Origin: Bimastos eiseni
Taxonomy: Eukaryota > Annelida > Clitellata > Crassiclitellata > Lumbricidae
Assembly (NCBI GenBank): GCA_959347315.1
Contig: OY365815.1
Span: forward strand, 14,675,459-14,739,458
Direction: 5' to 3'
DNA: 64,000 nucleotides
The notes beneath the pieces were generated by a model. That model was not told where the DNA came from, ran no database searches, and worked only from the letters and a program-made list of their open reading frames with translations. Of the stretch, positions 5,322-60,422 are shown piece by piece. Positions within the stretch are counted from its first letter, which is position 1. Each line of letters opens with the position of its first letter. Both the position numbers and the translations under genes were made by a program.

Positions 5322-5838
5322 ATGGCTCTAGACGACAAACAAATCACAGGCCTGATTTTCGATGAGTTAAAAGAAGTGGATGAGACACGAAACGAACGAA
5401 CAGATGTTTCTGCAGGAAGAAAGCTCCATTCTCTTCCACCTGGAAAACTCTATCACATTTTCTTTTCTTATTGCTCTGAAGATCAAGATTGGGTGAGGGA
5501 AATGGTCGATAAACTCGAATCATCAGAGTATGGCTTCAAGTGTTGCTATGCTGACAGAGATTTCGACCTTGGGATTCCAGTGTTTCAGAACATCACGAAA
5601 TGTATCCACACCAGTAAGAGAACGGTCATCGTTATGTCTCCGGAATTCCTTCAAAGTCCTTGGTGTAGCTACGAAACACGAATTACACTGGAACTGGACT
5701 TGGACACCAGACAAAGATTACTTATTCCAGTGATGCTACGCAGTTGCAGGGTTCCAGACTACATCGGGAGACTGACTTACATGGACGTACAGAACGAACA
5801 TTTTATTGGACGATTTGTGGCAGCAATTGAAGAGGACG
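5322..5838 (+). CDS. Gene A exon 1: N-terminal leader plus TIR domain
   Basis: The exon encodes a 43-residue acidic, low-complexity leader with no signal peptide, then the TIR domain. Box 1 reads LYHIFFSYCSED, the box 2/BB loop reads YADRDFDLGIPV, and the alpha-helical SPEFLQSPWCSYE segment follows. The domain ends at HFIGRFVAAIEED, where TLRs carry the FW of box 3. The proline of the usual RDxxPG BB loop is replaced by leucine (RDFDLG). Glu118 in WCSYE sits where TIR NADases have their catalytic glutamate, but signalling TLRs share this residue, so activity cannot be claimed. The exon ends one base into a codon at a strong GTAAGT donor (5839). The core is almost identical to the gene B exon. 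Confidence 0.93.
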
Positions 5839-8800
5839 GTAAGTTTATATTCCAGCAGCATTTCACGTGATGTAAGTTAGACCCGAATATTGATAAGTAA
5901 ACTGTTGTCGGCTAATTGCTAATTTTTATTGCTAATTACCACTTCTGAAAGACATAGTGTAGGAATGAACAACACCAATTAAAGTCATAGTTGAAAGGCA
6001 GCCCCTGAGATGAGGGAGCGGGATATCACCCTAAGTTGCCGAAGCTGATTGTAGCAGCTGCGGAAAATGAAATTGCTATGTTGGACAAATATGTGCTAGC
6101 TCCTAGTCTAAGGTACTTTCAAGTCTAGGACTGAGGATCAGAAGGGGGCTGTTGGTATTTCAGGACGAATAAACAGCACAAATTAAATAATAAGTCATGG
6201 TAGAAAGACGGTGGAAAGACATCAAAGCAAATGAATAGGTGTTGGAAACTGCAGATGTGGAAAGAAAATTCTTAGGTGCAGTAAAAGAAGCGAAGATGAA
6301 GTATTTTGGACATGCTATGAGGAAAGAAGGGGGAGGTATAGAGAAAGAGATAATACAAGGAACAATAGAGGGTGCTAGAGGAAGGGGAAGACCAGGAAAA
6401 AACTGGCTGGATAATATCAGAAAATGGATGGACACGTCAACAAACAGATGATGAAGGCTACAGAGATCAGGCAGAATTGGAGAAGGATTGTGCATGAAGC
6501 GGACTACCTTCGTACCGAATACGGCTAAAGAACAGAACAGAAGAAATGCAGCACCTTGGACGGGGAGCGGGATATCATATCACCATACGTTGCCGAAGCA
6601 GCTGCGGAAAATGAGATTGCTACGTTGGAGAAATTTAAGCTCCTAGTCTAAGATTATTTTCATGTCTAGGACTGAGGATGAGAAGGTGGGTTGCGGATAT
6701 TTCAGGGCGAGTTGCGAATCAAAGCATCTACTGAGTAAGTTGGACAGCAACAATCTAACTACTTGTTTCGGTATGACCACATGCCAAAATTGCAGCTTAT
6801 CTCTTACGTTGAAAGCATAATTCTGCCGCAAACCTGAGGCTTGACACAAATGAAGTGGTTGGGTGGTATGTGCAGATGCTACCAGGAGTACAACCACCAA
6901 GTCGACAAAAATCGAACATCTAATGGTGTAAATTAAAGAATTGGCTATTCAATGCACTGGTAGCAATGATGACGACGATGATGACAACGACGATGTGTGA
7001 TAATGATGACAGAATTCATTTGCGATGAATACAAGCTGAAAAGTCTAGCAGCTGGAGTCGTGTCATCCGCTTCAGGTGCAATGAAGTTAGCCTACGGGAT
7101 AATCAAGCAAGGTTGAAATGTAGATATTATCTTGATTCTTGGTGGACACTGTGCTATATTAAAAATAGTCATCTTAAGCTATGGTTTTGTCGTCATAGAT
7201 GTCTCTTATGGGTGTCTCTTAGCTGAGTTCACGCATTTATTTGCTTGGGCTACGAAACTGGTAGCCTACGGTTTTAAATGTTAATTATGCCAATGTAATT
7301 ACAGCTTCACCCAGTTCGATGCTGCAAGAAACTATCGGTAGTTCCGCAATTATGGCAGGCATTCCATTCCAGTACAACCCATGTAAGTAATGTCCTTTTA
7401 CATGTTTTGAAATAGTCACATCCCTTCATCCCAATGGTAGTCGATTGATTATCATTGTGGAATAATTATAGATACTGCGACTCTATAAATTCATCATTGT
7501 CCTGAACCTCCATTAGACGCTATACCATATCCTTAACATCCTATAATTGTCCATAAGTATATCACACATCTAATTCGTAACTGGGATATAATTTATATGT
7601 GTTGCAAAGCCAAACTCCGCCATTGGTTGTACCCTGCCATTGCCAATCCCAAGTCTGGATAAAGAAGTAGGGCGACGCTAATGGTCTTTGTTATCACGCG
7701 GTGTCGTTAAACTGCAACTACCACCACATGTAGCAATGCGAAGATGCACTGAAGGCGATGAGGAGGAGAAGAATATTGTTGTTTTCGTTGTTGTTGTTAT
7801 TGTTGGTGGTGGTGGTGGTGGTGATGATGATGATGATGACGACGACGACGAGGAGGACGTTGACGATGACGTTGACGACGATTCTGCCTGAGGTTCTAAT
7901 GGCCTGGGATCCGGGTACCTGCTGGTCGTGGTTGGTCATAGTTATCCGGCGCAGTCGCTTTTTGAGGCATTGACCGAATTTGTGAATCTGCTTCTACGTG
8001 TCCGCGCGCGGTTTGACGAATATTGTTTGGAGGCAATATGATTTCCCTCAGTAAAAAGTCCGCGGATTGAGTTGTTTCAGTTTAACGGCGCTGTATGATC
8101 GCAGAGATCATTAGCGTCGCCCTCCTTCTTTATCTAGGATTGTAACTGGCACTGGCTAATTGCAAACCTTTGCATTAACTTAAAATGATTGAGTGTCTAC
8201 TATCTAGGCCCAACTGTAGACGTTGAGGCTAATGAACGTTTGTTATGTTTGGAGATTCCCTATCTGTTGGCTCATTTGGCAGCTGGGTCCTTATCTCCAG
8301 CAACAGAAGACGTTCGTTCATCACGAACAATTCTTGTTTCCGAATTGGCCAGAAAAAAAACAATAAGATAAATTAGTTGAATAATGATGATCTGTGCTTT
8401 CACACAGTGTCGTTAAACTGCAACTACTATTATTTTAACTGGTCAGAGTTCAAAATTTACATAACAATGAGCCCTATGTGAGAAAATTGCTTGCTGAATA
8501 GTAAGCCAATGCAAGGTTTTGAGCATATGAGTTGGATGCTGATATGTCATATCTAACATACCCCAGATATCGTATCGTATCTGGTTATTCATATAGCGCT
8601 CCTTGCAGTATTAGCTATTCGGAAGCGCTCTCAGCGTGACAACCCAGAGTAAATAAGAGTCTTCAGGCAACGAAGGGATGCTCGTGGGAGCCCGATTAAA
8701 AGCTTGCTACGGATAATGGAGGGGAGGTCATTCCACATAGAAGGGTCCACGATGGCAAAGGCACGGTGTAGCTTTACCCTGTTGAGTTCTAAGGACAGAG

Positions 8801-11800
8801 AGGAGTACCGGATCCAGTTCACAGGACTTCTGGTTTGAAGAACTGAGAACTCGACGAAGTTCATCCTTGGTGATGGGGTGAAAGTCATCGAACTTAAATT
8901 TAGCAATAGAGAAGTAAGGTAGTGGAGCGTCAGAAGTAGAAGCACGCACACTTGCTATTTGCTCAGTCACCATCTTGAGGAAGTCGTCGGCAGAGAAGAC
9001 GGGGAGGCAGGCGAGCGGGAGGAATGGCCCATGAGGCCAGAGATGGAAGACCAAAGGCGTTTCGGGTTATTTTCATTTCGAGCGACGAGGTGCCCCCAGA
9101 ACTCGACCTCTTTGTGACGATAAAGACGATGTAGTGACTGCAGTTGAATGACCCATGTCAGGCGGTCAGCAGGGTCCCGTGAGCGACGGTGGTGTCTTTC
9201 GAGACACCGCGTGCGACGACGAACAGGCGACATTCACCATCGAATTAAGCTGCAAGAGGTCGAATACGCGTTTTAAACGTCTTCAGAGGCAGTAAATTAT
9301 CCACCAGATCGCTATATCATATAGCCTAACCGGTAGGTCTTAATATTGTTCGTTACATTTTTCTTCCTGCACCCACCAGCCCCTATCCTGTTACCGGTAT
9401 GCCAGAAATCTGTTAATTTTAGCGGACAACGCGCAGCATATTAGATTTTTGTCTCTGTCAGTGATTCGTAAATGAGCGCATCAGACACCTCTGCTTTTAA
9501 GGTTGTCAAAAATGTTAAAATCACGGTCCGGGCACCCGTCGACCCGCAGACATTTTATTAGAAAATGTAGGGAATTGCGCATTTTTACGGAATGTCGGGC
9601 ACTCGAGACCCGATTTCATTGCCCGGGCAGTCAGCTAATATGACCAACGGAACAGTTTTGGGTATACATTTAGGTAAAATCGCGCATTTTTACCGAATGT
9701 CGGGTACCAGAGAATCGATTTCATTACCCGGGCAGTCTGCCTCGAGCAGGTACCCATTAAAGCAGCCTTACTCTGCTTATCACTCGTCTCAGTCGTGTTT
9801 CAGTTTTACACAACAGGCTTTTAACACCAAATTGAAGTGACGTCTCACCTCTTCAGGAATCCTTACCATAAATTTCCTAATTCATTCAATTTTTTTCGCT
9901 TTCGAGGCTTCGTCGTTCTCAGCAGCCACTCTGTCTCCCCCTGCATGATCTTTTAGGCAACCGGACTCGATCTCCACTAGATATCGATCTATGGACTCTC
10001 CCTGTGATACGGTGAAGCGCTGGTGAATAAGTTGGAACCCTGTGCTTAGCTATAGAATAGCGATTTAGATAATATGAGTTTACAACGATTATGAAACGCT
10101 CTTAATTATGCGATTTAAAGATTTCCACAACACGGATGAAGTCGTTGAAGTGACCATCTATAGAGGATGTGACTTTACTTCAGGTTCTCAGCATGAACTT
10201 ATGCCAAATGAATTGATGCGAAACGGGCTGCAGGTAGGACTCTAATTACTTATGATAAATAAATAAAATAGACCCTAACGTTTATCTCCCGAACTAGATA
10301 ATCTGCTTGGGGTAAAAAAAAGTCGTGCTTTTGTAAGGCATCACTTCACAAATAAGACTCATTTACGAACTGGAATCAACAATGCCATGAAGTGTGTCTA
10401 TCATTCACGATTACGTGCAGCTACTTCTGTATTCAATTAAGATGTTTAAGTAAAGGTTACTCGTCTTATCCCTATAATACAAGACCACCTTGCCTCAGTT
10501 CTCGGGACATCATTAGCCACTGCTTACGTCATAATTGTTTAAATGGATCTGTAGCCTATCTATAGCCCGAAGGGTCATTCAAGACGGCGTCCAACAAGGC
10601 AGCCGATAGCAGAAATTGTCAACATTTCAAGAACCATTCGACTTAGAAAGATGTTTTGGTGACAAACCGTAGACTTCAATGCATGCTTATGAACAGAATA
10701 ACAATCTACCCTATTATGACCACGATAGAAAGGTCGCTTTCAAAATGGCGTAATACTCCACCCAGAAGGGAGTGTTTTGTGTAAAACTCTAGGTTATCTT
10801 GTATGTTTATTAACAGAGTAACAGTTTACCTTATTAAGACCACAATCGAAGAGGGATATTTTAAATGGCGTCCAACATGGCCGCCGAAAGCTAAAATTGC
10901 CAATATCTTATAAACTGTTATATCCAAAAGGGTTACGTGTTTTCCCCCATTAGATTGACGCGACTTTACCGCCTGTGAATAAGCTGGTTCCCGCGACTAC
11001 GCTTTTTTGGGCGCTGTAGAAATGCTGAGCTTACAATTACGATTACGATAAAACTGTGTGCACAATCGTATGATGTAGTTCGTAAATCGAATAAGATTTC
11101 TTAATTTCCGAAATGACTACGATAGATAATGTTAACATTCCACAACCCAATGACGTAAGCCTTTCCAAAGCTAAATGTTGGCACTTAATTCAGTAACACT
11201 GATTGCAGATTCAGCAATAACTTAATACAACATATTCCATTACTCTTAATAATTATTATTTTTATTTCAGATTACTCTGAGCGAATATCGAGAAATAATG
11301 ACATCTATAGCACGTATATTTTACGTGCGATGTCATGGATGTTTCAACAAAACGCTGTACCTAGTTCTTGGTGTAGGCATATTGATTGCCGCAACAGTTA
11401 CCGCTTTCATTTACTTTCCTAACGTGCAATTCTTCGACAAAACAATCGGAATAACTTCAGTAACTTTGTTCGTGTCTGTCATAGTTCTAATAGTCGTCTA
11501 CAGTATGTGCACATTGCTGGTAAGTTTCCGTTTTATGCTTATAGATGTAAACTCGTGTACCATCTAGCCGTAATGCAGTGTGCTGGATATGCACGTCTAA
11601 ACATTATACACGGACCTATGCACAGAACTGGAAAGTCCTTATGTAACGTCGTGTCACAAAGTTTTTGGCGAAAACTGTGAGCAAGAAATTTTAACATCTT
11701 GTTGACATGGGTCTACGCGTAGGAATCTTACAGAGATTCCTATAAAGCTCCACATAATTTCCTCAAACATTGCAATAACCGACATTTATAACCATAACCA

Positions 11801-14800
11801 TAACCAACCATTTTTATTGCAAGAAATGTGAAGTAAACTTAAGAAGCAGCATATAATATACATACAATGATTATTGGACTGATTGCATGTTATCAAAGGC
11901 ATCGACCAGGGTATCGAAGGCACAAGAAACTGGCAACAGAATCGCTTTCTCACGGAACCTGATGGTTGCTGTCAAACAATACGGCTGGTGTAGCTGTACG
12001 TGTGATATGATGATCGTATCCTTTCCACAATTTTGGCCAATCAACAATTATTATTCTCTTATACTCACAAAATAGACGCATCACAGTCTTCGTCACCATC
12101 ATTGTCTAAATATGTGTATTTAATATTCTAGAAAGTTCTAAGTTCGGTTAATATGTACGTATATATGCATGTAAGTAAGTATGTAATACTATGTATCTAT
12201 CTATCTGCAGTTGCGTCGGTGATACGTGTGTGCTTTATAAACGCCGAGTTGTATTGTATTGTGTATATTTCGTAACCTTATCCTGCATGCATATGAAAGA
12301 GTATCAATTTAAGTGAAGCTTATACTCTTTGCTAGTATATAGATCCAATTTTTAAATTTTTTTAATCACTGCAGTCAGTTTCTTCATTATCACCTAGTAA
12401 AATGCCTTTCTTTCACAAGTCCCTTAGGCTATGACGGATTCGTATTGCCAACCTTAATGACGCCTCTGAGAGATTGCTCCATTATTAAAATCCAAAAATC
12501 AAGTTACTTTGACTAAGATTAGAGCTAGAAAATGATACTTATTAGCAGAGTTGTGTGGTCTCTAGACAGTGTCTCGGTCTTGAGACATCTCGAGACAGTT
12601 TTTTAGTGTCTCGGTCTCGGAAGCTTGCTGTCTCGGTCTCGGTCTCGAGGCATTGTCTCGAAGTTTTAGAACTGTCTTGAAATGAAAGTCTTGTTCTGTC
12701 TCGAACAAGCGGTCTCGATAAGTTTCGCGTTAACTGTCGTAAAATCTTGCGCTAGAAACTGAAACCGGAATCTGCGAAAAACGGTGATTCTGGTTAACGC
12801 GCGAGTCACATGATATTGAAATCAATTCAATTGTCTTAAAGTGGAAAAATGTCTGAGAGAGAACCTGAAATTGTGAAGTTTGTGTTTACGCAATTGAAGT
12901 AAGGCCCATTGACAACCAATAGCTATGGCGTGCCGTTTGTCATTGATGTAAAACCACCATAACCGAAACGATCGGAACAACTTCGAGTTTCTCGGGGTGA
13001 GTAAGGATATGCGCAAATTTATAATTTCGTTTGGCATTTGGTATCGAATTTGCTTGTTTAAAATCGTCTAGATGACTTCAGACGCGCTATTACTTTACTA
13101 TTCAGTAGATAGGCCGAAGAAGAAATATAGAAAAAGATAAAACTCGGCAATATAAAAACTGTTCTTGGGAATTGGCACAATATTCCTTATAATTAAGTTT
13201 CTAATTGAAATTATAAAATAACCTTATTCCCGAAAACTGATACAATGGTATTTTGCAGCCTTTTATATAGGATCACTTGTCTTTTACTGTCTCGAACTGT
13301 CTTGAACCTAGTGTCTCGGTCTCGGTACATCACTGTCTCGGTCTCGGTCTCAGCATCTCACTGTCTCGGTCTCATCTTGGTCTTGAAGTTTAAAGTCTTG
13401 CATACAACACTGCTTATTAGAACAGTAATAATGTGTTAGACTGCTAATGAAGCAGTACCAGTACCAGTATCCCACTAGAGAGCATTATTGTCTCAATAAC
13501 GTAATAGGCTACTACAAGAATGCCCGGGCAGCATCATGTTATTCCTATCCTAAGATCAATTAATAATTTTTTAGTGAATTCACAACTAAGTATTATCACC
13601 AATCTACAACTCCCTACTGCACTTTCAAATGTAGACTATTCGTGAATTTTTTACCATCCAGCCAACTCGTTCTACCTGATCAAGCTCCTGTCTCAGTCTT
13701 CTCACCAACGAGCGATATCCCACACTGCACCACGTCTCTGAAACGCATGACGACCTTCCTCTCGCATCTTTTCGTTCCTCTATGTCATTGTCAATCAGCG
13801 ACCTTTATCTGTCCCATACTCATCTATCATCTCTCAAATTTTCCACTCAGAACTGAAGTCTAATCTCTTCAAGAATCCTACCCGGCCTCATTCGATCCTC
13901 CAACTTTCAATTCTAAACGACATCCATTGTTCCGGAATGGATCTGCCCGGGACGCGGGACATTTTGATCAATTCCGGCCAATTCGGGACATGTGGTCACC
14001 CTATTTGGCTTATGATTAGATCAAGTTAGTACATTCACAGTGCGCGTACAATGTTGATAATACTTAGTTGCGGAACGGGTCGAGTGGTCATGTAGGCCTT
14101 TCTCAGAGTCTGTGTAGAACCAACTGTCAAAGTCTTCGGGTACTAGACTCTTACCTTCAGTATAAATGGTCATCTAATTGTTACAATCGTCCTGATGAAC
14201 TAATAAAATGCATTATGACCGATAGTTTTAGAGGCCACAGAACCAGTCACAGATTAGTTAGGCAGACTGGTTGAACTCAAAAGTGTTAACTTCTGCGACA
14301 GGTAAAATATAGAACTCGGATAGTAACTGTGTGAGGTGAAATATCAAATTTCAATTACTTTTCTGGTGGTGATAAGGTCAATGTCAGAACCTACGGTATC
14401 TGAATGAATCTAACTTATCGGAACTACACCCAGCATCACCAAACAGACAATGAGCCTAATTGCAATTAAATTGTAGTGACCACAGACTGAACCTCTGTAC
14501 TTGAATGATAAAAGCGCTAAATGAGTCATTAGACAGCGTACCATATATTGCATTGGCGCCTCTCGACCGATTGTCTTGTCAAACTTAAATTCTGCTCTCT
14601 TCTCAAGTAAAATCTCAGGATACCTCAAATTTTCTACATTTTAAAAGAGTAGAGACAATAGAGTCCTTAAAGTGTTTTCAATCAGCTGATGTTTTACTAT
14701 TACGACTGGAAACCTTGTCATGTAAGTACCGAATAAATTATGTAATAACTGTCAATTGTCGAAATCACACGTGTTCGACACATCTATCGTGATTATCTTA

Positions 14801-17800
14801 ACATAGTTTATTTCACTCACAGTAATGGTTGATGGTTTTTCATCAAATTATGATACTGCTATAATTAGTGTTATTTACTTATTTCAAATGATAGTCTTAA
14901 TTACTGGCTATTTTTTATTATAGTTGCTGCATCCTTTACTATAAGGCAATGCGAAATTGCTTACTGACTGATAGTGACTGCAGAATTTATTGCGACGCGT
15001 TGCACTATTTGCTCAGATATACAATGGGTGTATTCAGCATCCTGAATGCACTTATGCTTGATGCTAATATTTCATAAATTTAGGTGATGAGAGGTAGTCA
15101 TTTCAGGGTAGTCTTCACCCTGTTTAGAATAATTTTTGTCAGTTCAAAAAGTTAGGAATTAAACTAACCCTATGATTTTTATTATAATTATAAGCAGTAG
15201 GCCTAACAGCATTCAATATATATAGATGTAGTCTATTGTTCCTCAGTCTCGTAATATGAGATAATATCTCATCATTATGTCACCATGAATACCTCGTTAT
15301 GTCTCATAATTGCATCGAAGGATGCTCGGCTATTTGAATCACTTTTGTTAAATGCATGATACATAGTTCATTCTCTGTAATGACACATAGAGACACAGAC
15401 AACGAACGTTGTAGAGCTCGTTAAACTTAATTACCAGACATAATATTATTATTGATAAACACAGCCATTGGTAGCGTTGAGTCTGCTAATTTTACTGCAC
15501 ACTAATATCTTCCAAATTTTGGTTGTTTGTCACTCCCTGTGGCTCAGACTTCTTTGTGTGTATATATGCATATATAGGTGGATGTAATGTTTGTAATGTA
15601 AATTTATCACAAGAGCAAAGTCAGGTCAACGAGCTTAACACCGGCCCAAACCAATCAAGTCAAGCTCCTAGTTCCGTTCGGGTGCCGGTGTCAAAGTGAA
15701 GTCGATGAGACAGAATGGTTACGGTACATGTAGTAGTTTGTGGTGATGGATGCATGGTGATGCATCATGCTTGGGATGAAAATGATCCGTGTTTTTACCA
15801 GCCATGAGCTCACCACAATCATCCCCTCACTAACTAACACCAAACCACTGATCATACACGAATTTATATTCGTACTTGATATGACTTCATGCAGAATTCC
15901 TACGAAATATCTTTGTATAATGTTGTTTACAATGACTATTACTTTCTGCGAATTTGCGATAGTCAACTTAGCTCACATACTTATAAAAACATATATAAAG
16001 TTTCAATCAATCAGCTTTTTCATTTTTTCTTTCTTACACATTTTTTCACCACACCAGTACAGTGATGCATCATATAATGGTAGATGCACAGCCAGTAACA
16101 ATGGGAGGACCCAAAGGAACATTAGTTCCTCTTACACGATCTCTCTAATACTATATAATACATCCGGTGACCAAGCTATCTTGTTAATTAGATTACGCAT
16201 TTATTTTCAGTTCATTATGTGTTTCTTTTTGCTTAATTATGTTACATTGCTGCAAAACACAAACTATTATTTCATCGTTATCTACGGCAAAACCACTTTT
16301 ATTAATTATACTGTACATGCAATGTGCAATAAAATAAGATAATTTATTATTGAATGTTTTTATTTCTGTCCATTCAGAGGAGGCAGATTGGAATTGATGG
16401 GGCAGGAGAGGGGTATTTTCCATAGCCTCAAGATTTTTTAAAGTAACAACATAACAATGATCATTTGTTTGTGACGATGCCGTGATGATCATGCAAAAGT
16501 GGTGCCATGCAAAGAGGGGAGTCACCGGTTATTGATCATACTTACAGTGGGCTAGTGCGCATTTATGCAACGAATATCACGTAGGAAACCTCTGCTTCCG
16601 CAGAATAATTATAGCAAGCTGCTAGCAGTCTCTGCGATGACGCCTAGGTAGCCAGGCGGCTTAGCTTATTTTTCAATAAAAAAAGTATTTAAACAAAAAA
16701 ATACTAAAAAAATCAGTGGAAGGCATGTGCCTCCGCGACTCAATGGTGGCGACATAATATTCCATTCTATTTTACATATTGGTTGTTAGGGAAATGAACC
16801 AAATTAATGGCACGGATATTTTCAGATGTCTCTAACGAAATACCGTTATTGGGTCTAGGATTGATACACTTTTCATACCAGAAGGAACAAGTTTTTTTAG
16901 TGATTGCAAATTTAAACACCTCAACCTTGTGGATGTGTTCAAAAATATAACGTTCGACAGGTTTCTTTCTCTGACATCATGCAGCTTATTCTCATATTCC
17001 CTTGATATTCTTTCGAAATTCTCTTCGTGGTTATCATCTATGCAGTTACTCGCATTATGTGATAGAGACATTTGGAAGACGGTACTAAAGGGCTTTTTAT
17101 AAACTCTCCTAATCAAATAGTTTCGAATTTCTAGCATCAAGCTTAGGCTGATATAGAAAACAGAAAATAATATTTAATTACAAAGTCAGTAAATCAAAAA
17201 AAATGCCTGAAACACGAAAAATCGATGTTACGATCATTTGTACTCCTTTGAGAACTAATAAACAAATTATTCGTAGATTCTGTGTTTTCTTCCTAAGAAC
17301 TCAATTTCATTTAATTGATTCTGTCTAGATGAACTTCTTGGTTTCCTCAAATCAGTGAAATTGCATAGGCCTACCCATTATACGAAATATGTAGATGAAT
17401 TTCAGATACGTCTGACTCAATTCCTCAATGAGCGCAGCTCCAGAAATGATGATGGGGTAAGTTTAAAAAGTCAGTTCCGCTTGCGTCACTCTTATACAAA
17501 ATGGGTCTATTCTGTAGGTTTGCATGAGTGCGTCACTGCGTGTAAGCATTTTTGCACATTGTCCATCGCATTGTCGGGCATTATGCAGCGCTTGTTAAAT
17601 AGGGTTCACAACTGACTTTCTCGCAATAAATTCCTAAGCACCTGCTCCTGGAAGGATGGTATTTCAACCCGCATAATTTGTTTTCTAAGTTTAAAATTCA
17701 GTGTAGCAGCTTGTAACATTCAAGTGACGGTCAGCTTAGACTGATACTGAACTGGAATCGTGACATAAACAAACGGATACTCGATATTCGAAAAACTGCC

Positions 17801-19059: not shown

Positions 19060-19256
19060 TTCATATACATAAATACATACATACATACATATATACATAC
19101 ATGTACATACATACATATATACATACATACATACATACATATATACATACAAGTACAGGCATACATATATACATACATGTACATACATACATACATACAT
19201 ACATACATACATACATACATACATACATACATACATACATACATACATACATACAT
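19060..19256. repeat. (ATAC)n tetranucleotide array
   Basis: Nearly 200 bp of ATAC/ATAT repeats, perfect over the last 70 bp. All the long ORFs here (YVCM or YIHT repeats) are artefacts of the array. Confidence 0.95.
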
Positions 19257-23285: not shown

Positions 23286-34792
<11,507 letters not shown>

Positions 34793-44399: not shown

Positions 44400-44446
<47 letters not shown>

Positions 44447-47400
44447 AATCATATGGCCTAACTTATACATTGTCAAATAATACGTTCACATTAATGGTTC
44501 AATTTCTGGCTGCAATATGTTTCACGAGAAATCAATGAAGTCAGTGATTAGTGTGTATATATAAGTATATTTATATATATTTGTATATATGTAAATCCAT
44601 CGATTCCAATGCAAAATGTATTTAGCTTGTCACACCACAATTCGAAGGCTGAAGTGGTATTTTATGTAGCACCTGTTTGCACGCTACACCACTGTTTGTG
44701 TAATTATTATTATTATTTTTGCTCTGAGGTATACAGGATTCCTCGGGGACTTAGAGATTGCTAACTATTTATGCAGTTTGTCTGGAAATAGCCCTACTCG
44801 TCGTTGTTGTCCTGGTTGGTAAAAGTGCCACGAAACGCGACAGCGTTAAAGCGTTGCATGGTTAACGAGATGCGTTGGCAGAGGCAGGAAGTATCTCATG
44901 GTTTCCCTCCGAGACCATGCTGAGTTTTTGTCCAAGGTCGGATAAAAAGGCCTTCGTTGTTTAGCGAGCCCACAATCTCAAAAGCCAGAGGGACGAACAG
45001 GTGGGTGCTAACAATTGGAAGGTATTTTTCGTGCTTGCGGACCTCTGCTCTATCAGCCGAAATACACTGTCTGAGATGTGTATGAGATATACGACGAGTA
45101 TTATTATTATTATTTATTAATATTATTATTATTATTACTATTATAATCATCATCACATTATTATTACTATTACTACTATTGGCATACACTACCAGTGATA
45201 TCATTAATACTGGTAGAAAATATTATTATTACTACTATCAGTACTGTTGTAACAATTACTACTATTGCCTTTATTGCCACTATTACTACAACAGCAACGA
45301 CTACACCTGCATCTTCTTCCCCCACTACCACTGCCACTTCCACCACAACTACTACTTCCACTTCTTACAAAATGCTACGATCGCCAGAAACGTACACTAT
45401 ACAATGTAATCTTACGGCTTAGTCAGATGACATTAACATATTATCTTTAATACCGACGACACCTAGTCTCTTCTTCGTGGTCCAGCTTCCTCTGCCATCC
45501 AGATGGTAGGACTTTAACTGCAGGCTTTAAGAGTTTATCTGCCTTGGGCGCTTGGCTCACCTTTTATCGCTCCGACTGAGCCATAACAAAAACAATTCGT
45601 GTTACTTGGTGGCAGTCTTCAGCTGCATAAAATCGATGCAGATTGACTCTATTATTTTGACGTTCACCTCATCCAGTTTTCGTCTTCTGGTCGTTGCTTG
45701 GGAATTGTTTTTGATCCAACTATTACTTTCATTGATCAGGTCAGCTCAGTTTCCAGATTCTGCTTCCACCATCTGCGCCAACTTCGTTACAGAAGAATAT
45801 TCTCAGATCTTCCTCCCTCCGTGCCTTCACTACCCTATTACAGTGCACGTCATGATTTTTATTAGGGATGACATTTAGGAATACTTTATGCATTGACCTC
45901 TTGACCTCTCGTTCTCCAGTACTCTTTAAAGTCAGTTTATCTTCAATACTGTTGTTCGACTCATAACGACTTTTTAAAGTCGCTAATATCTCATTCTTCA
46001 TTCATTACTCTCTTCACTGGTTCTCTATTGAGCAGCGTATGCAGTTCAAAACCCGTTCCCGCTGCCGATAACACTGCCTACCACATGCGCAACTGCCTCG
46101 ATGGGATGACCATGACCAACCTGAGGTTTATCTGTTGACAGAACAACCGCGGCAAGGACACTGAGGTAGGTCTTGGTGCAATCGGTATAGGAATGCGCGA
46201 TAACTTTCAGTGATGTTCAAGATCTCAGCCGGTAAAGAACGGTCAGACATGAACAGAAACCTATATGTACATGTATAGGGAACGCTTCGGTTTATTGACG
46301 GGCGATTCACGACTGAACTCGTTGGAAGTAAACCTCATGCGTCCGGTCGATCAGAATGCCAGCGACACACTGCAACATAGTTTCGTTGAAATCGACGAAG
46401 CATTATTTCGGGTTCAAAATATTTTGATCTTAGTGTCGCTATATCGCGCCTCAAATTCATTTCCACTTCATTGTTTCATTTAAGTCAGTTATTGCATCTT
46501 GAGAACAGCATACATATATATATATTATATAATTATATATATACACATATATGTATATATATGCATGTTTGTTTATATATAGATATTATATACATATACG
46601 CCATTTTACCATCGGCAATAAAGGGCAGATTCAAGGACAGAAGTTCCACTCCTATGACACAATAAAAAAATGGACAATGACGATAATTAATTTAAAATAT
46701 TTTTATTGGATCTAATTCTAGATTAGTTGTAATAATCGATGGTGACTAATACTATAAATTGAAGTTGCAAACCAAATCTATTAATTTTTATGATGTTCAT
46801 CGAAAATAATCTCACAAAATAGGAAATACACGTAGACTTTGTACTTCTCGTATTACAAAACAAATTCACAATTTCTACCTGTTGGCGAACTCCGTCCGTT
46901 TAGCATTTCCACTTCAATACTACGTGTGTCACCCAACTTTGCTTTTGACCATATTTCAAGCATGCAGTTTGAAGGCCGATGATCAAGGTAACCAGAAACC
47001 ACATGATTCCACTGCCTGGTCAACCTCGAGGTCTGTTCCATTTCCCCAAGCGTGTTCATTGTGTCGTCCTTATGGCTCTCCAGAAAGTGGTGATCGTTTG
47101 TTAGATCACGTTCAACATGTCGGAAAAGTGCGTCCGTAATCAGCGTTTTCGGTTATTACTTTAATATCAGCAAGTTAACTGAACCGTTTTAAATAGTGTA
47201 TTACTAGTATGCCAGGAATCGAAAGCTAAAGTTAAATAACAGCGGTTTTATTATCCTTAAAGACTAGATCATCTTTTACTACTACGACTGGAGACCTTGT
47301 CATGTAAGTTATGATGACCGTTCTGTGTTGGCCAATTTTTAACACAAATTGACAAAGCTTACGCTTGCTGCCTCGTCCATTCATTCATTCATTCAGTCTG

Positions 47401-50011
47401 AGCACTTATATAGCACTCTTTAATAAATCTACGCAGGTGCGCTTCCATCCACCGCTAAAGACAAAGACTTTACGATTTATAAAACCTGGTTTCGTCGACT
47501 GAGGTAACAAGCACAGTTCCAAATGGAGGTCATTCCAGATGGAGCGCACGAGAAAGCTCGCTGTTGCCTGGCAGACAAGCGAGCCCGTGGAACTGTTGTC
47601 GTGGAACAAAGCTGTCGCCAAGCTGCAACTCTGGACACTGGCCGGCAACGATCACACTGACAAAATGCATCCCACTTAGTACAGGCAATGATAAGTTTAG
47701 CGTGAAAATAAAACAACAAGACGATATGAGATCCGGCGGGCAACAATCAGAGACAGAGACGATTATGGGAACTTTCCAATAAAAAAGCTGAGCGTTCGAG
47801 ACCCCGAGGTGAGAACAACGAAGTTCGGGCAGCAGCGCTTTTCACTGCATCTAATAGATCTAGCAGTACTTCTTAGTTTAGCTATATTCAGTATTGATTA
47901 ATTTAGTACTTCCATGATTTAAGAGAGTTAAAAAAAATTATAATGCTTTTATTGCGTCCCGAAATTCAAACTGATTATAGTCTAATCCGAAAATTTACTC
48001 ATCGTGAGCGTATGTTAGAGGAAGCTATCTACTAAATACGAATAATGTTGTGTGTCTAATGCTAATATTTTATGTTCTAATGATTAGTTGATGTGTTGAG
48101 GTATAATATTATAGAATAATAATATATCTCTCAGCACAGAAACTTGAAAACAAGATTAAATAACACTGCAAGGATAACATGTATAATAAAATGCTTTCCG
48201 TGCAATGCCATTGAATCTGATCTAAAAGCCTATAATCAGTTTTCCTTTTATAATATAACTGTCTTAATAAGTAGGCTATATATTCTGCTTTTCAATTTAT
48301 ATCATGCCAATTCCAGACTTTAGTTTTAAGAAAGGATTTCATGCAGACTTCTGAATGTGAAATAACATTGTGTAATTTCAGTCACAACTGGCTCAATTTC
48401 TTACTGACGGATACAGAACAGCTGATGGGGTAGGTCTGATGGTCCAGCTTAGGCATAAATAGGAAGTCACATTAAAAAGTGAAAACATAACATATCCTAA
48501 CGCGATTGTCATCAATATTTCAGGTCAATGAAACGGGGATAATATAAATTACAGATCCACACTCTAATAATTATGTGGATACTCATTGTCATCTCTATAG
48601 GGCCAACGTATGCTTTGGAACTCCAAATTCTATACCACCAAAATAGATAGTGTAATAAGATGAGGTTCTATATACATCTGAGCCGATGCCGAACAGTGTG
48701 CCACCTACCGTTTATTAGGCCTATAGTATACGTAGTACATGTACATTACGGAGTTTTCAAGCGGTCATTTGGTAGATTAGAGATTTGTATCAAACGACAA
48801 GTGCGGTGATGCATATACCATCATTGGAACTTTTATTTTCTCCATAGTACATTTTATCTGGTTTATTACAAATGCAGATCTACAAATTATGCTGCAGATT
48901 ATATCAATCAATATAAAATTAAACCGTAAGTTTTCGATTCCCTCAGTGCGATATGCAAACAGTTCAAGCAGGTCACTCTTACGAAAAGCTTCAACAACAC
49001 TATCATGCAACTGAAGTTAAGCACATTGAACACTTAAGAATTTTTTGACCTTTTACCTCTGGCTAGGATCATTGACAATCGCACTGAAACTTATTAGTTG
49101 GTCTTTGACTGAAATGCGTTTCTCTTTCTCAGATCTCGTCACGTGTTTGTCGTGATCAAAGATCACTCATAAATGACGAAGAAATGTTTTCGACAAGCAT
49201 TCAGGTTGGATATTTCATTGCTACTCAACTCAATTTCTTAGTTTCGAATCCAGATATGGTGAACTAATATCGTGTAGCCGTTTTAACACTAACGATAAGC
49301 TTACTTGACTCTCTTTGTTTTAGATTGCTGTGTGCAGTTCAGTTTTAATTTAGGGTGCAGAAGTTTAATGGTCAGCTTACTGCAGGCTTAGTGTCTATCG
49401 AAAGATTAATGTTCAAAATTCCTATGACGGCTGGCTATTTTCAAGTGGTTATAAAGTGCACATTGTCGTATACTCTCAATGGGGATGTCATGCAGTGTGG
49501 AACATTAAGGCGGCTGTCTTCAATCATCATGCCTCGATGCTAAATGAAGAAATCACCAAAACTTCATGCTCATTGCAGGCTTATGGTACGAGTTGTATTA
49601 TTTCCTCTTCTTTGGCTCGGTGTCTGCCAATGTCACAGATGCAATTTATGGCTGGCCTATTTTACATTAGCGTGATTATTTTATCTAACCATCTAATTAT
49701 ATGTAATCGGTATTCAAAATTTGTATAGTTCTTGAATATAATACAATGCCTATAACTGACTGCGTCGGTTGATTGACTTGATGTCTTCGAAGGATGAAGC
49801 CTGGGATTTGTTAGTGAAACACGCAACTGAATACAGCCAACTTCTGGTCAACAGACGATCAAAGACTCCGAACGAACAAAGACATACTCGACAGGGAGAG
49901 TGTCTTTGTCAATTTGTAGAAAGTATTCTGATCTCTGGAGAGACGTCATGCTGCGATTGCATCTTTGGAGTCAGAAGTCGTCATCCATGGAGACGCTACT
50001 GCTTATTCTGA
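38861..50011 (+). CDS. Gene C: TIR-TMEM268-like fusion protein, nine exons
   Basis: Predicted 453 aa. Exons: 38861-39287, 40061-40138, 40478-40590, 41356-41607, 43690-43806, 47268-47303, 48382-48429, 49133-49204 and 49793-50011. Lengths are 427, 78, 113, 252, 117, 36, 48, 72 and 219, in a single frame. TIR spans residues 12-142, the hairpin exon 207-290 and the TMEM268-like tail 291-453. The exon 1 donor is GTCAGT rather than GTAAGT; reading through it gives a stop two codons later. The start corresponding to the gene B ATG is destroyed (see findings), so the N-terminal leader is only 11 residues. No disabling lesion was seen in the rest of the frame. Confidence 0.86.
41356..41607 (+). CDS. 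Gene C exon 4: transmembrane hairpin
   Basis: 84 codons after TTTTCAG. VTPSEYGEMVTAVSRVFYVT is followed by CHGCFNK, where gene C has TCHGC instead of RCHGC. Hydrophobic segments are YVLPILASYSLVVLFTCLAV and one starting YLFVCGALAML and ending SSLLIVY, with the loop TLDTTPET between them. The exon ends CTLVV... with the splice after ACATTAGTG at GTGAGT. Confidence 0.85.
41624..42380 (+). mobile_element. CR1/L2-like LINE C-terminal fragment, split by a MITE
   Basis: DWLPVSQQISSLIAALVSRC, then CPVSDVAARRVLRSATRGEL, PVPRAHLAIRQRRSFSVVGP and SLWNELPFDLRSLL form a well-preserved polymerase C-terminus (41624-41910). The reading resumes after the MITE as FYKSFKSF from 42327. It lies directly behind gene C exon 4 in intron 4. 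Confidence 0.85.
41927..42326. mobile_element. hAT-type MITE nested in the LINE fragment
   Basis: The ends are TAGAGCTGTGGAAATTAACG and the reverse complement of CAACAGCCCTA, that is TAGGGCTGTTG. A perfect 8 bp target duplication GTTTTTAT flanks it at 41919-41926 and 42327-42334. The interior is AT-rich with ATTAATCGATTAATCG-type palindromes and no ORF. Confidence 0.9.
42416..42560. repeat. Degenerate (TATG)n tract
   Basis: TATGTATG words with interruptions over about 145 bp, in gene C intron 4. Confidence 0.8.
43014..43152. mobile_element. Short hAT-type MITE, 139 bp
   Basis: Termini CAGGGGCGTCAATCC and the reverse complement of TGGACGCCCCTG are inverted repeats. Perfect 8 bp target duplications CATTTGAT lie at 43006-43013 and 43153-43160. 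No coding capacity. Lies in gene C intron 4. Confidence 0.9.
44395..44446. repeat. (TA)n tract
   Basis: A nearly perfect TA run of about 45 bp in gene C intron 5. Confidence 0.95.
44707..45097 (-). mobile_element. R4-like retroelement 3' end inserted in TAA repeats
   Basis: The minus strand encodes LCQRISLTMQRFNAVAFRGT, the same motif as at 19990 and 55500, then a 3' UTR with AATCTCTAAGTCCCCGAGGA and GCAAAAATAATAAT. ATT repeats lie on both sides (44702-44717 and 45098-45140), as expected for insertion into a TAA microsatellite. Confidence 0.65.
45098..45375. repeat. Imperfect ATT/ACT trinucleotide repeats
   Basis: ATTATT passes into ACTACT, ACTATC and CCACTTCC-type triplets. All overlapping ORFs are compositional artefacts. 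Confidence 0.85.
45640..46060 (+). mobile_element. LINE polymerase fragment with broken frames
   Basis: Pieces readable in shifting frames are LGIVFDPTITFIDQV, then FCFHHLRQLRYRRIFSDLPP and HYSLHWFSIEQRMQFKT. This is the order found in CR1/L2-like polymerases between RT and the C-terminus. Lies in gene C intron 5. Confidence 0.7.
46505..46605. repeat. Imperfect (TA)n tract
   Basis: ATATATATATTATATAATTA-type sequence with ATACACATATATG interruptions, in gene C intron 5. Confidence 0.8.
47406..47746 (-). mobile_element. LINE C-terminal fragment, minus strand
   Basis: Two overlapping frames read TVPRARLSARQQRAFSCAPS and SFLVRSIWNDLHLELCLLPQ. Together they give the same PRARLxxxQRAFS...WNDL signature, split by a frameshift. 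It lies 100 bp after gene C exon 6. Confidence 0.75.
49793..50011 (+). CDS. Gene C exon 9: conserved cysteine-rich C-terminal domain
   Basis: DEAWDLLVKHATEYSQLLVN begins the exon, so the cysteine of EYCQ is serine here. RHTRQGECLCQFVES, the SCCDCIFG cluster and the RHPWRRYCLF tail follow. The acceptor is preceded by TCTTCGAAG, a weak pyrimidine tract compared with the other exons. No close AATAAA was found downstream. Confidence 0.87.
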   Translation, partial: DEAWDLLVKHATEYSQLLVNRRSKTPNEQRHTRQGECLCQFVESILISGETSCCDCIFGVRSRHPWRRYCLF

Positions 50012-53645: not shown

Positions 53646-54234
53646 ATGGATCTAGAGAAAGCTGATCCTGAAACCGAAATAAACAGTCAACTGACGACAG
53701 ATTCTGGAGTTGCTTCAAATGCATGTCTAATTTCTTTAATGCCTGAGATGACCGTCACTCCAGAGTGTAGGTCCATAATCAACAACGGCTTAGCAAGTGT
53801 CAATAGACCTTTGCCTTCTGGAAAGCTGTATCGTGTTTTCTTTTCACACTTTCACACTGCAATGAAGACCGTGAATGGGTGAGGGATATGGTGGAGAAAC
53901 TTGAATCACCAGAATTTGGCTTCAAATGTTGTTATGACGAAAGAGACTTCGATCTTGGTGTACCAGTGTTTCAGAACATCACGAAATGCATCCACACCAG
54001 TAAGAGAACGGTCATCGTTATGTCTCCATAATTCCTCCAAAGTCCTTGGGGGGGGGGGGTGTAGCTACGAAACGCGAATAACACTGGAACTGGACTTGGA
54101 TACCAGACAACGTTTACTCATTCTAGTAATGCTTCGCAATTGCGAGCCTCCACAATACATTGGAAGACTAACTTACATGGAAGTGCTGAATGAACATTTC
54201 TGGGGGCGTTTTGTCGCTGCACTTCAAGAAAATG
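53646..54234 (+). pseudogene. Gene D exon 1: broken TIR exon with longest leader
   Basis: An open leader of about 60 residues (from MDLEKADPETEINS) precedes PLPSGKLYRVFFSH. The 8 bp duplication then throws the frame into a TGA at 53880-53882. The TIR resumes in another frame (EKLESPEFGFKCCYD, RDFDLGVPV). It is broken again by TAA in place of the glutamate codon of SPEF and by the G run before CSYE. The +8 and +10 insertions add to 18, so the downstream part returns to the original frame. The box 3 equivalent is HFWGRF, the only copy here that keeps the aromatic FW pair of TLRs. Confidence 0.85.
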
Positions 54235-55439
54235 GTAAACTAGTTTCATTTCCAGTAGCTAAGTTAGCAACTACAAAGTGATATATATATGCGTATCAAT
54301 ATACCCGATGAATATGTTGCTTCTTTTTTGACAACACTGAAACAATACTTACTGAAACAAATAATTACTGGCATATTTTATAGGTCGATATCATGGTGAT
54401 TACCTGTTGTAATGTATTATCATTATGGGGTTGGGAGGGACACGACCACGTGACCGTTTGGTGACGAAATCAATGGCCATGTATAGAAGAAAGTTCAAGA
54501 AACCACCGTAACGCATATATCAATAATGGTCAGTAACTTAAGGAAAAAAAACGAAACGTGTAGATGGTACATCTGGCCAGTGTGTTGGCTTGATTAAGTT
54601 ATCGACATTGACCTATTTGCTATGTTGTTCATGCAAGCATTCATATCAAACATTTTTATAGCGACCGTGCAGGCAAATTAGTCTGAGGCGCTCCAAACTC
54701 CACCACGGCAAAAAGAAAAGTCCTATAGTGAGAAATTTGCATAAGATAGCGGGTCGGAGAAAGAGACGAAGCTCATGAGGAAGACTATTCCTGGTCCACC
54801 ACCGGGTCCACCACCGAAAAAACGCTATTCTGCCTATTGGAGGTATGGGAAAAGGATCAAGGAGTCGGCCATGGTCAGGTGAGCGGAGGGATTGAGAGAC
54901 TCTATCATTTAGGACAGGACAACAGAGCTCACGAAGATAGACAGAAGCGAAACCTAATAAACAGCGTCAGACTATGGTACCATTGCGCAGAAGTGATCCA
55001 TTGGACAGCGTGCTTAATCTAATGTGTCAAGCTTAAGGCTATTTATAATATAGAAATTAACATAATTATTCATAGACTCAATCTCAACATAGAAGTCAGT
55101 GAATGAAAGGATGCCCCGCTGGCATTATTTCACAATGTTGTGAGCTCTACATATTCATTTGAATATAAATGATCCAGACAGTTATAATGTTGTGTATTTA
55201 CAGATTCAACTGATTTGATTCCACAAGCAGATATAGGAAGTTCAGCAATTATGGCTGGTGTTCCATTCCAATTCAACCCACGTAAGTGATCAATCTGACT
55301 TTCCTAGTCAATCATTTTAGTCGTGCAATTCACTTATTAATACCGGATAGTCTTGTATGCATATTAAATTCGACTTCTGTAATGACTTGTCGCTATTCGT
55401 TCATACTGTATCTGTAGTCATATTGCGACTTGTCAATTT

Positions 55440-55885: not shown

Positions 55886-56399
55886 ATTTTATTATTTTTG
55901 TAATTATAATTAATAAGTGGTCAATGACTTAAGTTTAAAACTAATCTGTCAGCCTAAGTTAACAATATCTAGTAAATTTTACCATTATTCATGGAGAAAC
56001 TTGGATAGGTTTTCACTTTATTTTCCGTAAGACGGGTTTTTCATTTATTATGAGTCCTTATTTCCACATAGTGATTAGTAAATTTTTACCAGGTAGTGTT
56101 ACTTGTTGTAAATAATCAATTGCAGACTTCCAAAACACAGATGAAGTCGTAGAGTTGACAGTGCATCAGGGATGTCACTTTTGTTCAGCCCCTCCAACTG
56201 AGTTTGTGCCAAACGAAATAATGAGAAATGAACTACAGGTGAGCCTTGGGTCGGTCGAATTATATCAATCAACCATATGACATAAACATCAAGTCTGAAA
56301 ACATCTGTAGGGCATGCAAATTGTACAAGAACTTCCAGCGTACAGACTCAATTTAGAACGGAGTTGACCTCAGTTCGAGAAATCTAGACATAGGAACCT

Positions 56400-56480: not shown

Positions 56481-58467
56481 ATGCATCCACCAAACACGTA
56501 CAGTTTTAGATATGAAAAGCATACATTTTGTTATTTCAGGTAACACCGAATGAATATCGAGACATTGTAACAGCTGTGACTAGTACCTTTTATGTTAGAT
56601 GCCACGGATGTTTCAACAAGTCTATATTTGTTGCCAATTGGATCTGCTTTGATTGAGGCGTTTGCTTTGATCATCGTTACAATCGGATTCTCTGCGCGGG
56701 ATGCCTTCTTCATGTTTGGTTTACAAACACTTATATATCGTCTTCTACTATTACGACTGGAGGCCTTGTCATGTAAGTAGTGTTTGATATTTCGCGTAAT
56801 ATTATGAACATGTATACGTATGTGTTTTAGGTCCCTGAGGTCAGAAATATGCCTTAAGTAGGCCTGGGTAGGATGGGATATGACTTCTACCTATTCTGAG
56901 TTATAAAAAATCTATCAATTCAGATAATTTTTTTATTTACATGATACATTGTTTTACCATCATTATAAATGTTATTATTATCATCATCAATGTTATTCCT
57001 ATTATTATTGTTGCTATTAACTTATTATCATTATTAACGAACTCTCTCATACGTCCATATCAATATTCGCCATTCGACAATAGCAATCGTAGTCGCATTA
57101 TATAGTGTATAAACTGTCGTTATCTTTCTAATGGTTGTGTCCGGTGAATTTATGTAAATGAGTTTGAATAGACTTAGGTTTAATCGTAAACTCAAAATTT
57201 CTAAAGCGCAACTTTATAGCTCAGCACAGAGTAGCCTACCAATTTCAAATCAAATCAAAAGTTCTTTGTTGTTCACCAAATCAAATTTGAAAGCAGCAGA
57301 AACATGAAATGATACAAGTGAGTATATAAACTATAGTTAACACATTTGCATAATAGCAAACAAAAGGTATGCCCCAAATTAAGGAACGAAACGTTCCGCT
57401 AGAAGGGGCTGCCTCATTACACCAGATAAATTTCAATGTAGTGATTACAGCAATATATGTACCAATTATGGGTTCATTGAAGTGCTTTAACACACTTATT
57501 CAATTACACTGTTCTACAATAAACAGCCAAAATTCACAAATTATAGCGCAGTGAATTTAATTATGCACTTACACGTTTCATACTATTGTGCAATTACACG
57601 ATGATATAATAATATTATACAGTCATAATATGCAAAAAGCCTTCCGTGAATTAACAAACTCAGCAATGCATATGAAATACGATAATGACAATAGAACCCT
57701 AGGCAGAACGGATCATACATTCAGCAGGTAGTGTTTTAACTCGCGTTTAAACGATTGCAAAGATGAGGAGCTTGTCAATACTTTTGGCGATGAATTCCAG
57801 TAGCTATAGGGCCATATATTTGTATGCTATGCTGTCTAAGGGTAGTACGAACAAGAGCTGATGATTGTTGTCGGAGGAGCGCGTGAAATAATTATGTAGC
57901 TCCGAAATTTTTTTTAACCAAGGCTGGAATCTGCTACAGTGGTGGAACTTGTACATGAATTCCCCAATCTGGAACTTGCTAATGCATTCGAATTTATTCG
58001 CGGCATAATTTATTCACGAGCTTTGCTAGTATCAGAAGGGTTGTCCAGAGATCAATGTCCAATGGAGTTTGGTAACCGGTTTACAGAGAGATCATAGAAA
58101 GGAGACGGAGCCAGAGCACTTGCTAATAAGAAAATGACAACAACCTTGTTCATACAACTTGATTTTTATATCTTTATTTTACGCTTACTTACCTAATTGC
58201 AATCTGAAATCTCGAACCTGCATATTTCTTGTATGCGTGTATGATACATGCGAGTGTTTGTGAAATTTCAGTCGTAACTGACGCAATTTCTTACTGAGCA
58301 TTACATAACAGATGATGAGGTAAGTCTGCAATTTTATTCTACCTTACAAATTGACATATCTTTTGCCAGCGGTATACATCATCGATTGCGCCACCGCTAG
58401 AGCGGAAAATATTTGTACGGATATTCGCACGGTGCATATGTAAAAGTAACTCTCTCAAACTTCCATA

Positions 58468-58590
58468 TATAATATATATATAATATATATATAATATATA
58501 TAATATATATAATACATATATATAATATATATAATATATATAATATATATAATATATATATAATATATATATATATTATATATATATAAC
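58468..58590. repeat. (TAATATA)n / (TA)n tract
   Basis: About 120 bp of ATATATAATATATA-type repeats in gene D, between exon 7 and the expected exon 8. Confidence 0.9.
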
Positions 58591-59955: not shown

Positions 59956-60203
59956 TTCAGTAATAAGGTGCTTTAAGCTTATCTTGCATTTTGATGTGAT
60001 GTCTACGATTCATAGCGGGTCTTGTTATGACTCTGCAAGTCTACCATGCTTTCTGCAAGTTAAAAAATTTCCTACAGTTAAACAAAATTCATATAGGCTA
60101 CCGTTAATAATGTTAGTTTTAATGTTGAAAGCATTATGTAAATACGTTATACCTGTCAAAAATATGTAACCTTATATATAACTCTCAACTGTGTCATTGA
60201 AAG

Positions 60204-60422
60204 GACGAAGCTATTGATTTGCTGGTGAAACACGCAACTGAATACTGTCAACTTCTACTGAACAGACGATTAAAGACTCCGATCGAACAGAGACATACTC
60301 GACAGGGAGAATGCCTCTGTCAATTTGTGGAAAGTATTCTGATCTTCGGAAAAACATCATGCTGCGACTGCATCTTTGGAGTTAGAAGTCGTCATCCATG
60401 GAGACGCTACTGCTTGTTCTAA
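60204..60422 (+). pseudogene. Gene D exon 9: intact terminal exon of the broken copy
   Basis: It begins DEAIDLLVKHATEYCQLLLN and contains RHTRQGECLCQFVES, the SCCDCIFG cluster and the RHPWRRYCLF tail, ending in TAA. It is open and near-identical to the exons of genes A-C despite the upstream wreckage. This points to recent death of the gene or homogenisation by conversion. An AATAAA lies at 60571-60576. Confidence 0.82.

Follow-up and report, generated by a model that had tools for sequence, protein, structure and literature searches.

The 64,000-nucleotide window of the Bimastos eiseni genome analysed here (contig C10:14675459-14739458; the genome is 660 Mb in 118 contigs) carries a tandem array of genes in which an exon for a TIR domain is joined to a series of small exons homologous to TMEM268 (also called C9orf91; domain DUF4481, Pfam PF14800). 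That these genes belong to a fused TIR–TMEM268 family, and that the homology holds, we regard as close to certain. Our best explanation of the whole, taking in family, fusion and role, is that the products are membrane-anchored TIR scaffolds, to which we give a probability of about one half; that the scaffold would act at integrin-bearing or endosomal membranes, by analogy with mammalian TMEM268, is a more tentative proposal.

Four TIR–TMEM268 units lie head-to-tail on the plus strand, A (5322-18646), B (23286-34792), C (38861-50011) and then D (Table 1). The first-pass annotation of this DNA had reported four such copies; the units and their exon order, coordinates and strand are as it gave them, but only A, B and C are intact. 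In these the splice models link the TIR exon with a series of small exons, seven in A and eight in B and C, whose phases match: every intron is GT-AG, exons 2 and 3 are entered in phase 1 and the remaining exons in phase 0, and the conceptual proteins (459, 469 and 453 amino acids for A, B and C respectively) have no internal stop. The description of a TIR exon plus eight small exons fits B and C, where all nine were delimited, and falls short by one in A, where eight of the nine were located. Exon 8 of gene A was sought and not found; as this exon is a phase-0 multiple of three (75 nt in B, 72 nt in C), gene A stays in frame without it. Exon 6 is a micro-exon of 36 nt in all three genes, the introns between exons 1 and 2 measure 0.8-3.4 kb, and gene B spans 11.5 kb in total. 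Copy D has decayed into a pseudogene: a run of G and an in-frame stop mark its frame-broken exon 1, exon 4, likewise frame-broken, continues straight into exon 6 without an exon 5 between them and with no AG before exon 6, and exon 7 carries an in-frame TAA; exon 9 retains an open frame with its stop.

A profile that drew on 16 public relatives and on no window sequence gave 26 matches at E<=0.02 to the open reading frames of the window, all on the plus strand, and none in the reversed window or in 20 Markov windows, so that a chance origin of the exon series was rejected. All but one of the 26 coincide with exons of the four units and follow the expected succession (the exception is 40346-40507, E 0.018); exons 2, 7 and 8 gave no single match to this profile. 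The array outruns the window. A survey took in 259 kb of surrounding sequence, of which 3,459 bases at the left end are N. In it, decayed copies continue to the right for about 60 kb, as remnant E (fragments of exons 5 and 6), remnant F (a TIR with an in-frame stop and exons 3, 4, 6 and 9), remnant G (a piece like exons 4 and 5, and exon 9) and a tail fragment; to the left, where 62 kb could be read, the survey turned up no family remnant. When the whole genome was searched with the exon 9 peptide, 12 candidates were scored; the nine matches listed are six array tails (A, B, C, D, F and G), two pieces of a tail remnant and one match on contig C13 (45% identical, E 1.4e-4).

The 16 public relatives (P0001-P0016) include nine full-length fusions (P0001-P0006, P0011, P0012 and P0013), three of which (P0004, P0005 and P0013) are listed with TIR only in precomputed Pfam calls, their DUF4481 part being recognised by alignment. 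P0001 has 493 codons on a contig of 1,841 bases, so that introns could take up no more than about 360 bases and the contig resembles a transcript, and in P0014, on a 928-base contig, the TIR is joined to a peptide like that of exon 2. The claim that the TIR exon is joined to the exons downstream is thus borne out at transcript-sized contigs of relatives, not of the window genes themselves. P0006 and P0011 (each on a contig of 28,607 bases) and P0002 and P0012 (each 12,541) probably share a contig, judging from equal size. A profile search with the DUF4481 half returned four proteins, the fusions P0005, P0006 and P0011 together with P0010; it reached no vertebrate TMEM268 in a collection that may lack vertebrates. 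The TIR starts further from the N-terminus in the nine scanned relatives that bear one (residue 83-146) than in A, B and C (16-46), and a search upstream for an exon supplying the missing N-terminal leader gave nothing convincing (a weak trace in A, E 0.26). The public relatives have a conserved segment upstream of the TIR, with LTxxDxI in 8 of 15 TIR-bearing proteins and more loosely, by eye, in three more; a consensus of this segment had no Pfam match.

The first domain is a clear match to Pfam TIR_2 (cut-off 28 bits), at 78.8 bits in A, 76.9 in B and 65.7 in C (7.3e-18). By sequence the TIR of gene B is nearest to those of TLR15, TLR1, oyster TIR-STING, Hydra TRR-2 and MyD88, and the family TIR belongs on this evidence to the TLR/MyD88/Hydra-TRR-like class. 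Structure models were poor (predicted local distance difference test scores of 54.8 and 55.6); Foldseek matches fall mainly over the TIR (residues 114-246), with Hydra TRR-2 in first place, tied with TLR1, and the poorly modelled DUF4481 half is barely covered. The only NCBIfam match, in each of three proteins scanned, was a sub-threshold one of the TIR to a retron-TIR model. Neither a leucine-rich match nor a death domain was found in A, B or C at E<=1 in Pfam; the N-terminal TIR is unlike the layout of a Toll-like receptor (TLR), and a MyD88-type adaptor would carry a death domain. The proteins had been called membrane TIR proteins that are neither TLRs nor soluble adaptors, which these domain contents bear out, but the class has a precedent, a membrane-anchored TIR protein of Hydra with no ligand-binding domain (available part of PMC7075850).

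For the second domain the match to DUF4481 (cut-off 25 bits) is above threshold in gene B, at 26.7 bits, with its best stretch at residues 394-440, and in four of the seven relatives scanned that contain the region (P0001, P0002, P0003 and P0006; P0004, P0005 and P0010 are below). A consensus made from ten sequences, three of the window and seven public, scored 58.6 bits (8.7e-16), and 31.4 bits (1.6e-7, model positions 18-178) with the tail removed; such a consensus outscores natural sequences, and these values speak for collinearity rather than giving a fair E-value. Exons 3-7 alone matched weakly, in B at model positions 26-178 (E 0.0084), in P0001 (0.0034) and in P0002 (0.074). Sequence comparison thus upholds the reading by eye that the exon motifs follow TMEM268: the homology is collinear from the N-terminal part of the domain through the hairpin to the cysteine tail. 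All nine proteins examined for hydropathy have a hydrophobic stretch fitting two helices (two peaks in five, a run of 54-67 residues in four) and none has a hydrophobic N-terminus. Flanking the hairpin are 1-4 basic residues on the N side, where 2-4 acidic ones partly balance them in the proteins counted, and 2-5 basic residues on the C side. Both the TIR and the DUF4481 part at the C-terminus are therefore predicted to be cytosolic, as had been proposed, an orientation that is a prediction from hydropathy and charge, with only a few residues in the non-cytosolic loop of the window genes.

A dispersed gene elsewhere in the genome is more typical of TMEM268 and appears to have the same order of domains. 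A genome search with PF14800 scored 10 candidates, and a tail on the minus strand of contig C1 was alone among the matches listed; the search was insensitive, the window's own exons being absent from its listing. A TAA reported inside this match falls in the intron before the exon. Five exons of the C1 gene were placed (Table 1), with the array's phases, 1 then 0, and joined together they read open throughout. As one natural sequence the C1 gene scores 42.2 bits for TIR_2 and 48.2 bits for DUF4481; exons 3, 4, 5 and 9 without the TIR give DUF4481 51.3 bits, and with both TIR and tail removed 30.2 bits remain, over model positions 2-148. Its TIR shows 25-36% identity with the family TIRs, has Hydra TRR-2 as best solved structure (E 5e-4) and is without the WCxYE motif. 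We consider that this dispersed gene is very probably spliced to its TIR exon. If it is, then the array arose by amplification of an older TIR–TMEM268 state. The earlier suggestion of a lineage-specific expansion accordingly suits the tandem copies and not the architecture, as the dispersed gene has a family TIR exon upstream. In the surrounding sequence (C1:16094000-16183999, minus strand) a glutamine/glycine-rich stretch precedes the TIR and an AT-rich tandem repeat lies just past its donor. On contig C13, where 10 kb was read (1719000-1728999, minus strand), a third locus has a confirmed DUF4481-type tail in an open reading frame at 1719000-1719368, and a weak hairpin-like open reading frame at 1725729-1726091 (E 0.14).

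The copies of the array have diverged unevenly. Between A and B exons 2-7 have a synonymous divergence of 1.0-1.65, against 0.20 for exon 1 and 0.28 for exon 9, and in exon 9 it is comparatively low also for A/C (0.38) and B/C (0.47). Identity of the A and B TIR sequences is 94-100% over about 23445-23745 (compared with the matching part of 5322-5838) and drops to 36% in the adjoining intron. As the identity stops at the exon border and the introns can hardly be aligned, recent exon-limited gene conversion between A and B is likely from these alignments. Among A, B and C the hairpin exon, exon 4, is the most divergent of exons 1-7 and 9 (36-46% amino acid identity, against 79-82% for exon 1), with a ratio of nonsynonymous to synonymous change (dN/dS) below 1 (0.35-0.63).

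The regions of CD11b and ITGB4 that mammalian TMEM268 binds are their cytosolic tails. In the available parts of the two reports, residues 1-152 of TMEM268 bind the CD11b C-terminus (PMC11169502) and residues 104-342 bind ITGB4 1356-1756 (PMC6748091). Loss of Tmem268 diverts CD11b to endosomes and lysosomes, and in mice it brings worse sepsis, a higher bacterial burden and lower CD11b (PMC11169502, in part). By analogy, the TMEM268 half of the array proteins would anchor them on plasma-membrane or endosomal membranes through the tails of integrins or similar receptors and would govern the trafficking of the bound receptors; the TIR half would nucleate or recruit MyD88/TLR-type assemblies at that membrane; and the whole protein would serve as a scaffold through which phagocytic or adhesion receptors are coupled to TIR signalling. 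The first-pass annotation had proposed an innate immune sensor or effector. An adaptor has better support than a sensor, given that the loop predicted on the non-cytosolic side comprises only a few residues in the window genes; the immune role itself is inferred from mammalian TMEM268.

Among the closest known systems, human TMEM268 shares the DUF4481 domain (38-328) and the hairpin, with helices at 104-126 and 130-152, and no TIR is named in the available part of that report (PMC6748091), whereas the array genes stand in tandem and have a TIR and a linker exon in front of the domain. Hydra TRR-2 (4w8g/4w8h) is, like the family here, a membrane-anchored protein with a similar TIR and no leucine-rich ectodomain; unlike it, DUF4481 is not mentioned in the portion of its description available. 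Oyster TIR-STING (6wt6, 6wt7) is also a metazoan TIR fused to an immune module, and its TIR is near by sequence (E 4.8e-14), but the module is STING, in complex with a cyclic dinucleotide according to the title of 6wt7, and DUF4481 is a different one. The TIRs of MyD88 and the TLRs are of the same class, and differ in the domains that accompany them and in the BB-loop proline considered below. The ecTIR-DC proteins are invertebrate TIR proteins absent from vertebrates with proposed roles as adaptors or regulators; DUF4481 is not named for them in the accessible part of PMC6321704, and the present family may overlap with one ecTIR-DC family.

Several observations weigh against the scaffold explanation or parts of it. 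The DUF4481 scores of A (20.2 bits) and C (23.1) are below cut-off, three of the six segments tested as exons 3-7 alone (C, P0003 and P0006) had no DUF4481 match, and the highest scores come from a consensus with the limit stated above. Six of the public relatives show the TIR part only (P0007-P0009 and P0014-P0016) and one the DUF4481 part only (P0010). Exons 2, 6, 7 and 8 of the C1 gene were sought and not found, its exon 4 requires a GC donor, and because the intron after the TIR would be 15 kb long and those four exons were not found, the C1 TIR exon could belong to another gene. On the N side of the hairpin acidic residues equal basic ones in several proteins, giving a weak positive-inside signal. 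The BB-loop proline is absent from 17 of 18 family TIRs, which have L or I in its place. Finally, the integrin link is carried over from mammalian TMEM268, and of the two papers in which TMEM268 and MyD88 are mentioned together, as far as their available text goes (PMC11169502 and PMC9404936), the first has both its MyD88 hits in the reference list.

Were the fusion only apparent, a TIR gene of one exon and a separate, neighbouring TMEM268 gene would have been duplicated together. The length of the first introns, in the array and above all in the C1 gene, would suit this, and in P0007, P0015 and P0016 the reading frame seems to continue past the exon 1 donor into a short tail. We nevertheless hold adjacent separate genes to be very improbable, given nine public fusions, one of them on a transcript-sized contig, the exon 1-exon 2 junction in P0014, and a GT donor at the same place and in the same phase in A, B, C and the C1 gene. 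An enzymatic effector, in which the TIR would be a membrane-anchored NAD hydrolase, is improbable also. The position of the catalytic Glu of SARM1-type NAD hydrolases is kept in 17 of 18 TIRs (lost in P0004, and lost also in the C1 TIR); by sequence the family TIR is nearer to TLR/MyD88.

The remaining alternatives accept the fusion and assign it another role. The TIR of Hydra TRR follows a single helix and stands at the C-terminus. A split receptor of similar kind, in which the array proteins would be the signalling half and pair through the hairpin with a separate ligand-binding membrane protein, each paralogue with its own partner, has in its favour the Hydra precedent (PMC7075850, in part), the repeated appearance of TRR-2 at or near the top of the structure and sequence matches for the family and C1 TIRs, and the divergence of exon 4. 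The N-terminal TIR before a two-helix hairpin is however unlike the TRR order, and with dN/dS below 1 relaxed constraint explains the divergence of exon 4 too; we consider a split receptor unlikely. Mutants of the BB-loop proline such as TLR2 P681H have a signalling defect, and TLR3, whose TIR is without this proline, signals nonetheless. The loss of the proline in the family, the further loss of WCxYE in the C1 TIR and the presence of the P681H mutant structure (1fyx) among the structure matches would accord with a negative regulator or decoy that caps MyD88/TLR assemblies while its TMEM268 half steers receptors to endosomes, as would the lowering of Tmem268 expression by lipopolysaccharide in macrophages, cited in the available part of PMC11169502. 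In the same source mouse Tmem268 acts positively on CD11b, which like the TLR3 case speaks against a decoy; we consider the decoy slightly less probable again than the split receptor. The membrane-anchored scaffold is our preferred explanation.

Table 1. Exons of the TIR–TMEM268 array in the window and of the dispersed gene on contig C1
Feature	Position	Strand	Basis or remark
Gene A exon 1, TIR domain	5322..5838	+	splice model; Pfam TIR_2 6.4e-22 on spliced protein
Gene A exon 2, linker, phase 1-1	7305..7382	+	splice model
Gene A exon 3, VEVTIYRGC strand	10121..10233	+	splice model, relatives profile
Gene A exon 4, FYVRCHGCFNK and predicted two-helix hairpin	11271..11519	+	splice model, hydropathy, relatives profile
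Gene A exon 5, WCSCTCD	11899..12015	+	splice model, relatives profile
Gene A exon 6, micro-exon, FYYYDWKPCH	14686..14721	+	splice model, relatives profile
Gene A exon 7, IRLTQFL	17406..17456	+	splice model; matched by eye to exon 7 of B, C
Gene A exon 9, CLCQFVE tail and stop	18428..18646	+	splice model, relatives profile
Gene B exon 1, TIR domain	23286..23766	+	splice model; Pfam TIR_2 2.5e-21
Gene B exon 2	27140..27217	+	splice model; like peptide joined to TIR in P0014
Gene B exon 3	29428..29540	+	splice model, relatives profile
Gene B exon 4, predicted membrane hairpin	30476..30718	+	splice model, hydropathy, relatives profile
Gene B exon 5	30984..31100	+	splice model, relatives profile
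Gene B exon 6, micro-exon	32011..32046	+	splice model, relatives profile
Gene B exon 7	32494..32541	+	splice model
Gene B exon 8	33496..33570	+	splice model
Gene B exon 9, DUF4481 C-tail and stop	34574..34792	+	splice model, relatives profile
Gene C exon 1, TIR; start Met uncertain (ATG of B is ATA here)	38861..39287	+	splice model, Pfam
Gene C exon 2	40061..40138	+	splice model
Gene C exon 3	40478..40590	+	splice model, relatives profile
Gene C exon 4, predicted membrane hairpin	41356..41607	+	splice model, hydropathy, relatives profile
Gene C exon 5	43690..43806	+	splice model, relatives profile
Gene C exon 6, micro-exon	47268..47303	+	splice model, relatives profile
Gene C exon 7	48382..48429	+	splice model
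Gene C exon 8	49133..49204	+	splice model
Gene C exon 9	49793..50011	+	splice model, relatives profile
Copy D exon 1, TIR, frame-broken	53807..54234	+	relatives profile
Copy D exon 2	55204..55281	+	
Copy D exon 3	56126..56238	+	relatives profile
Copy D exon 4 remnant (frame-broken) fused into exon 6, exon 5 missing	56540..56772	+	relatives profile
Copy D exon 7, in-frame TAA	58272..58319	+	
Copy D exon 9, open frame and stop	60204..60422	+	relatives profile
C1 gene TIR exon	C1 16145451-16144932	-	phase-1 GT donor like array exon 1
C1 gene exon 3, 113 nt as in A, B, C	C1 16129955-16129843	-	
C1 gene exon 4	C1 16128681-16128418	-	GC donor
C1 gene exon 5	C1 16126604-16126494	-	
C1 gene exon 9	C1 16124059-16123904	-	

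Intron 1 of gene B holds a reverse transcriptase fragment (24212-24481, plus strand; PF00078, E 9.1e-6, below cut-off), which was the one such match among eight transposon-like open reading frames scanned; two others gave weak matches that were discounted (MVP_shoulder 0.009, zinc finger 0.047) and five gave none. An open reading frame on the minus strand between A and B (20098-20481) has no Pfam match and presumably resembles the end of a retroposon polymerase. A 312-base (ATAG)n array in intron 7 of gene B (33074-33385) gives rise to long repetitive minus-strand open reading frames, and an ATAC array akin to it lies at 19065-19256. Rfam and tRNA scans of the window gave no match.

In a literature search with most subscription papers outside its scope, the ecTIR-DC founding paper among them, no paper was found that pairs TIR with TMEM268 or C9orf91, and a single paper of the searched literature, on human TMEM268, mentions DUF4481. 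The architecture is already visible in public precomputed domain calls; what is new is its recognition as a family. The family adds an architecture with an N-terminal TIR and two helices to the few membrane TIR proteins of invertebrate immunity other than TLRs, and the recurrent fusion is a guilt-by-fusion clue that the little-studied TMEM268 works in or near TIR signalling. As loss of mouse Tmem268 impairs bacterial control through CD11b, this idea is testable in mammalian macrophages. It is possible, although we think it doubtful, that a TIR before TMEM268 is the old state of the gene in this animal lineage, which the dispersed gene would have retained, the array amplified and vertebrates lost. 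If that is true, TMEM268 would be a membrane platform of ancient origin for TIR signalling, contact with MyD88, TIRAP or TLRs may persist in the vertebrate protein that lacks the fusion, and TMEM268 may tie integrin-driven phagocytosis to Toll signalling.

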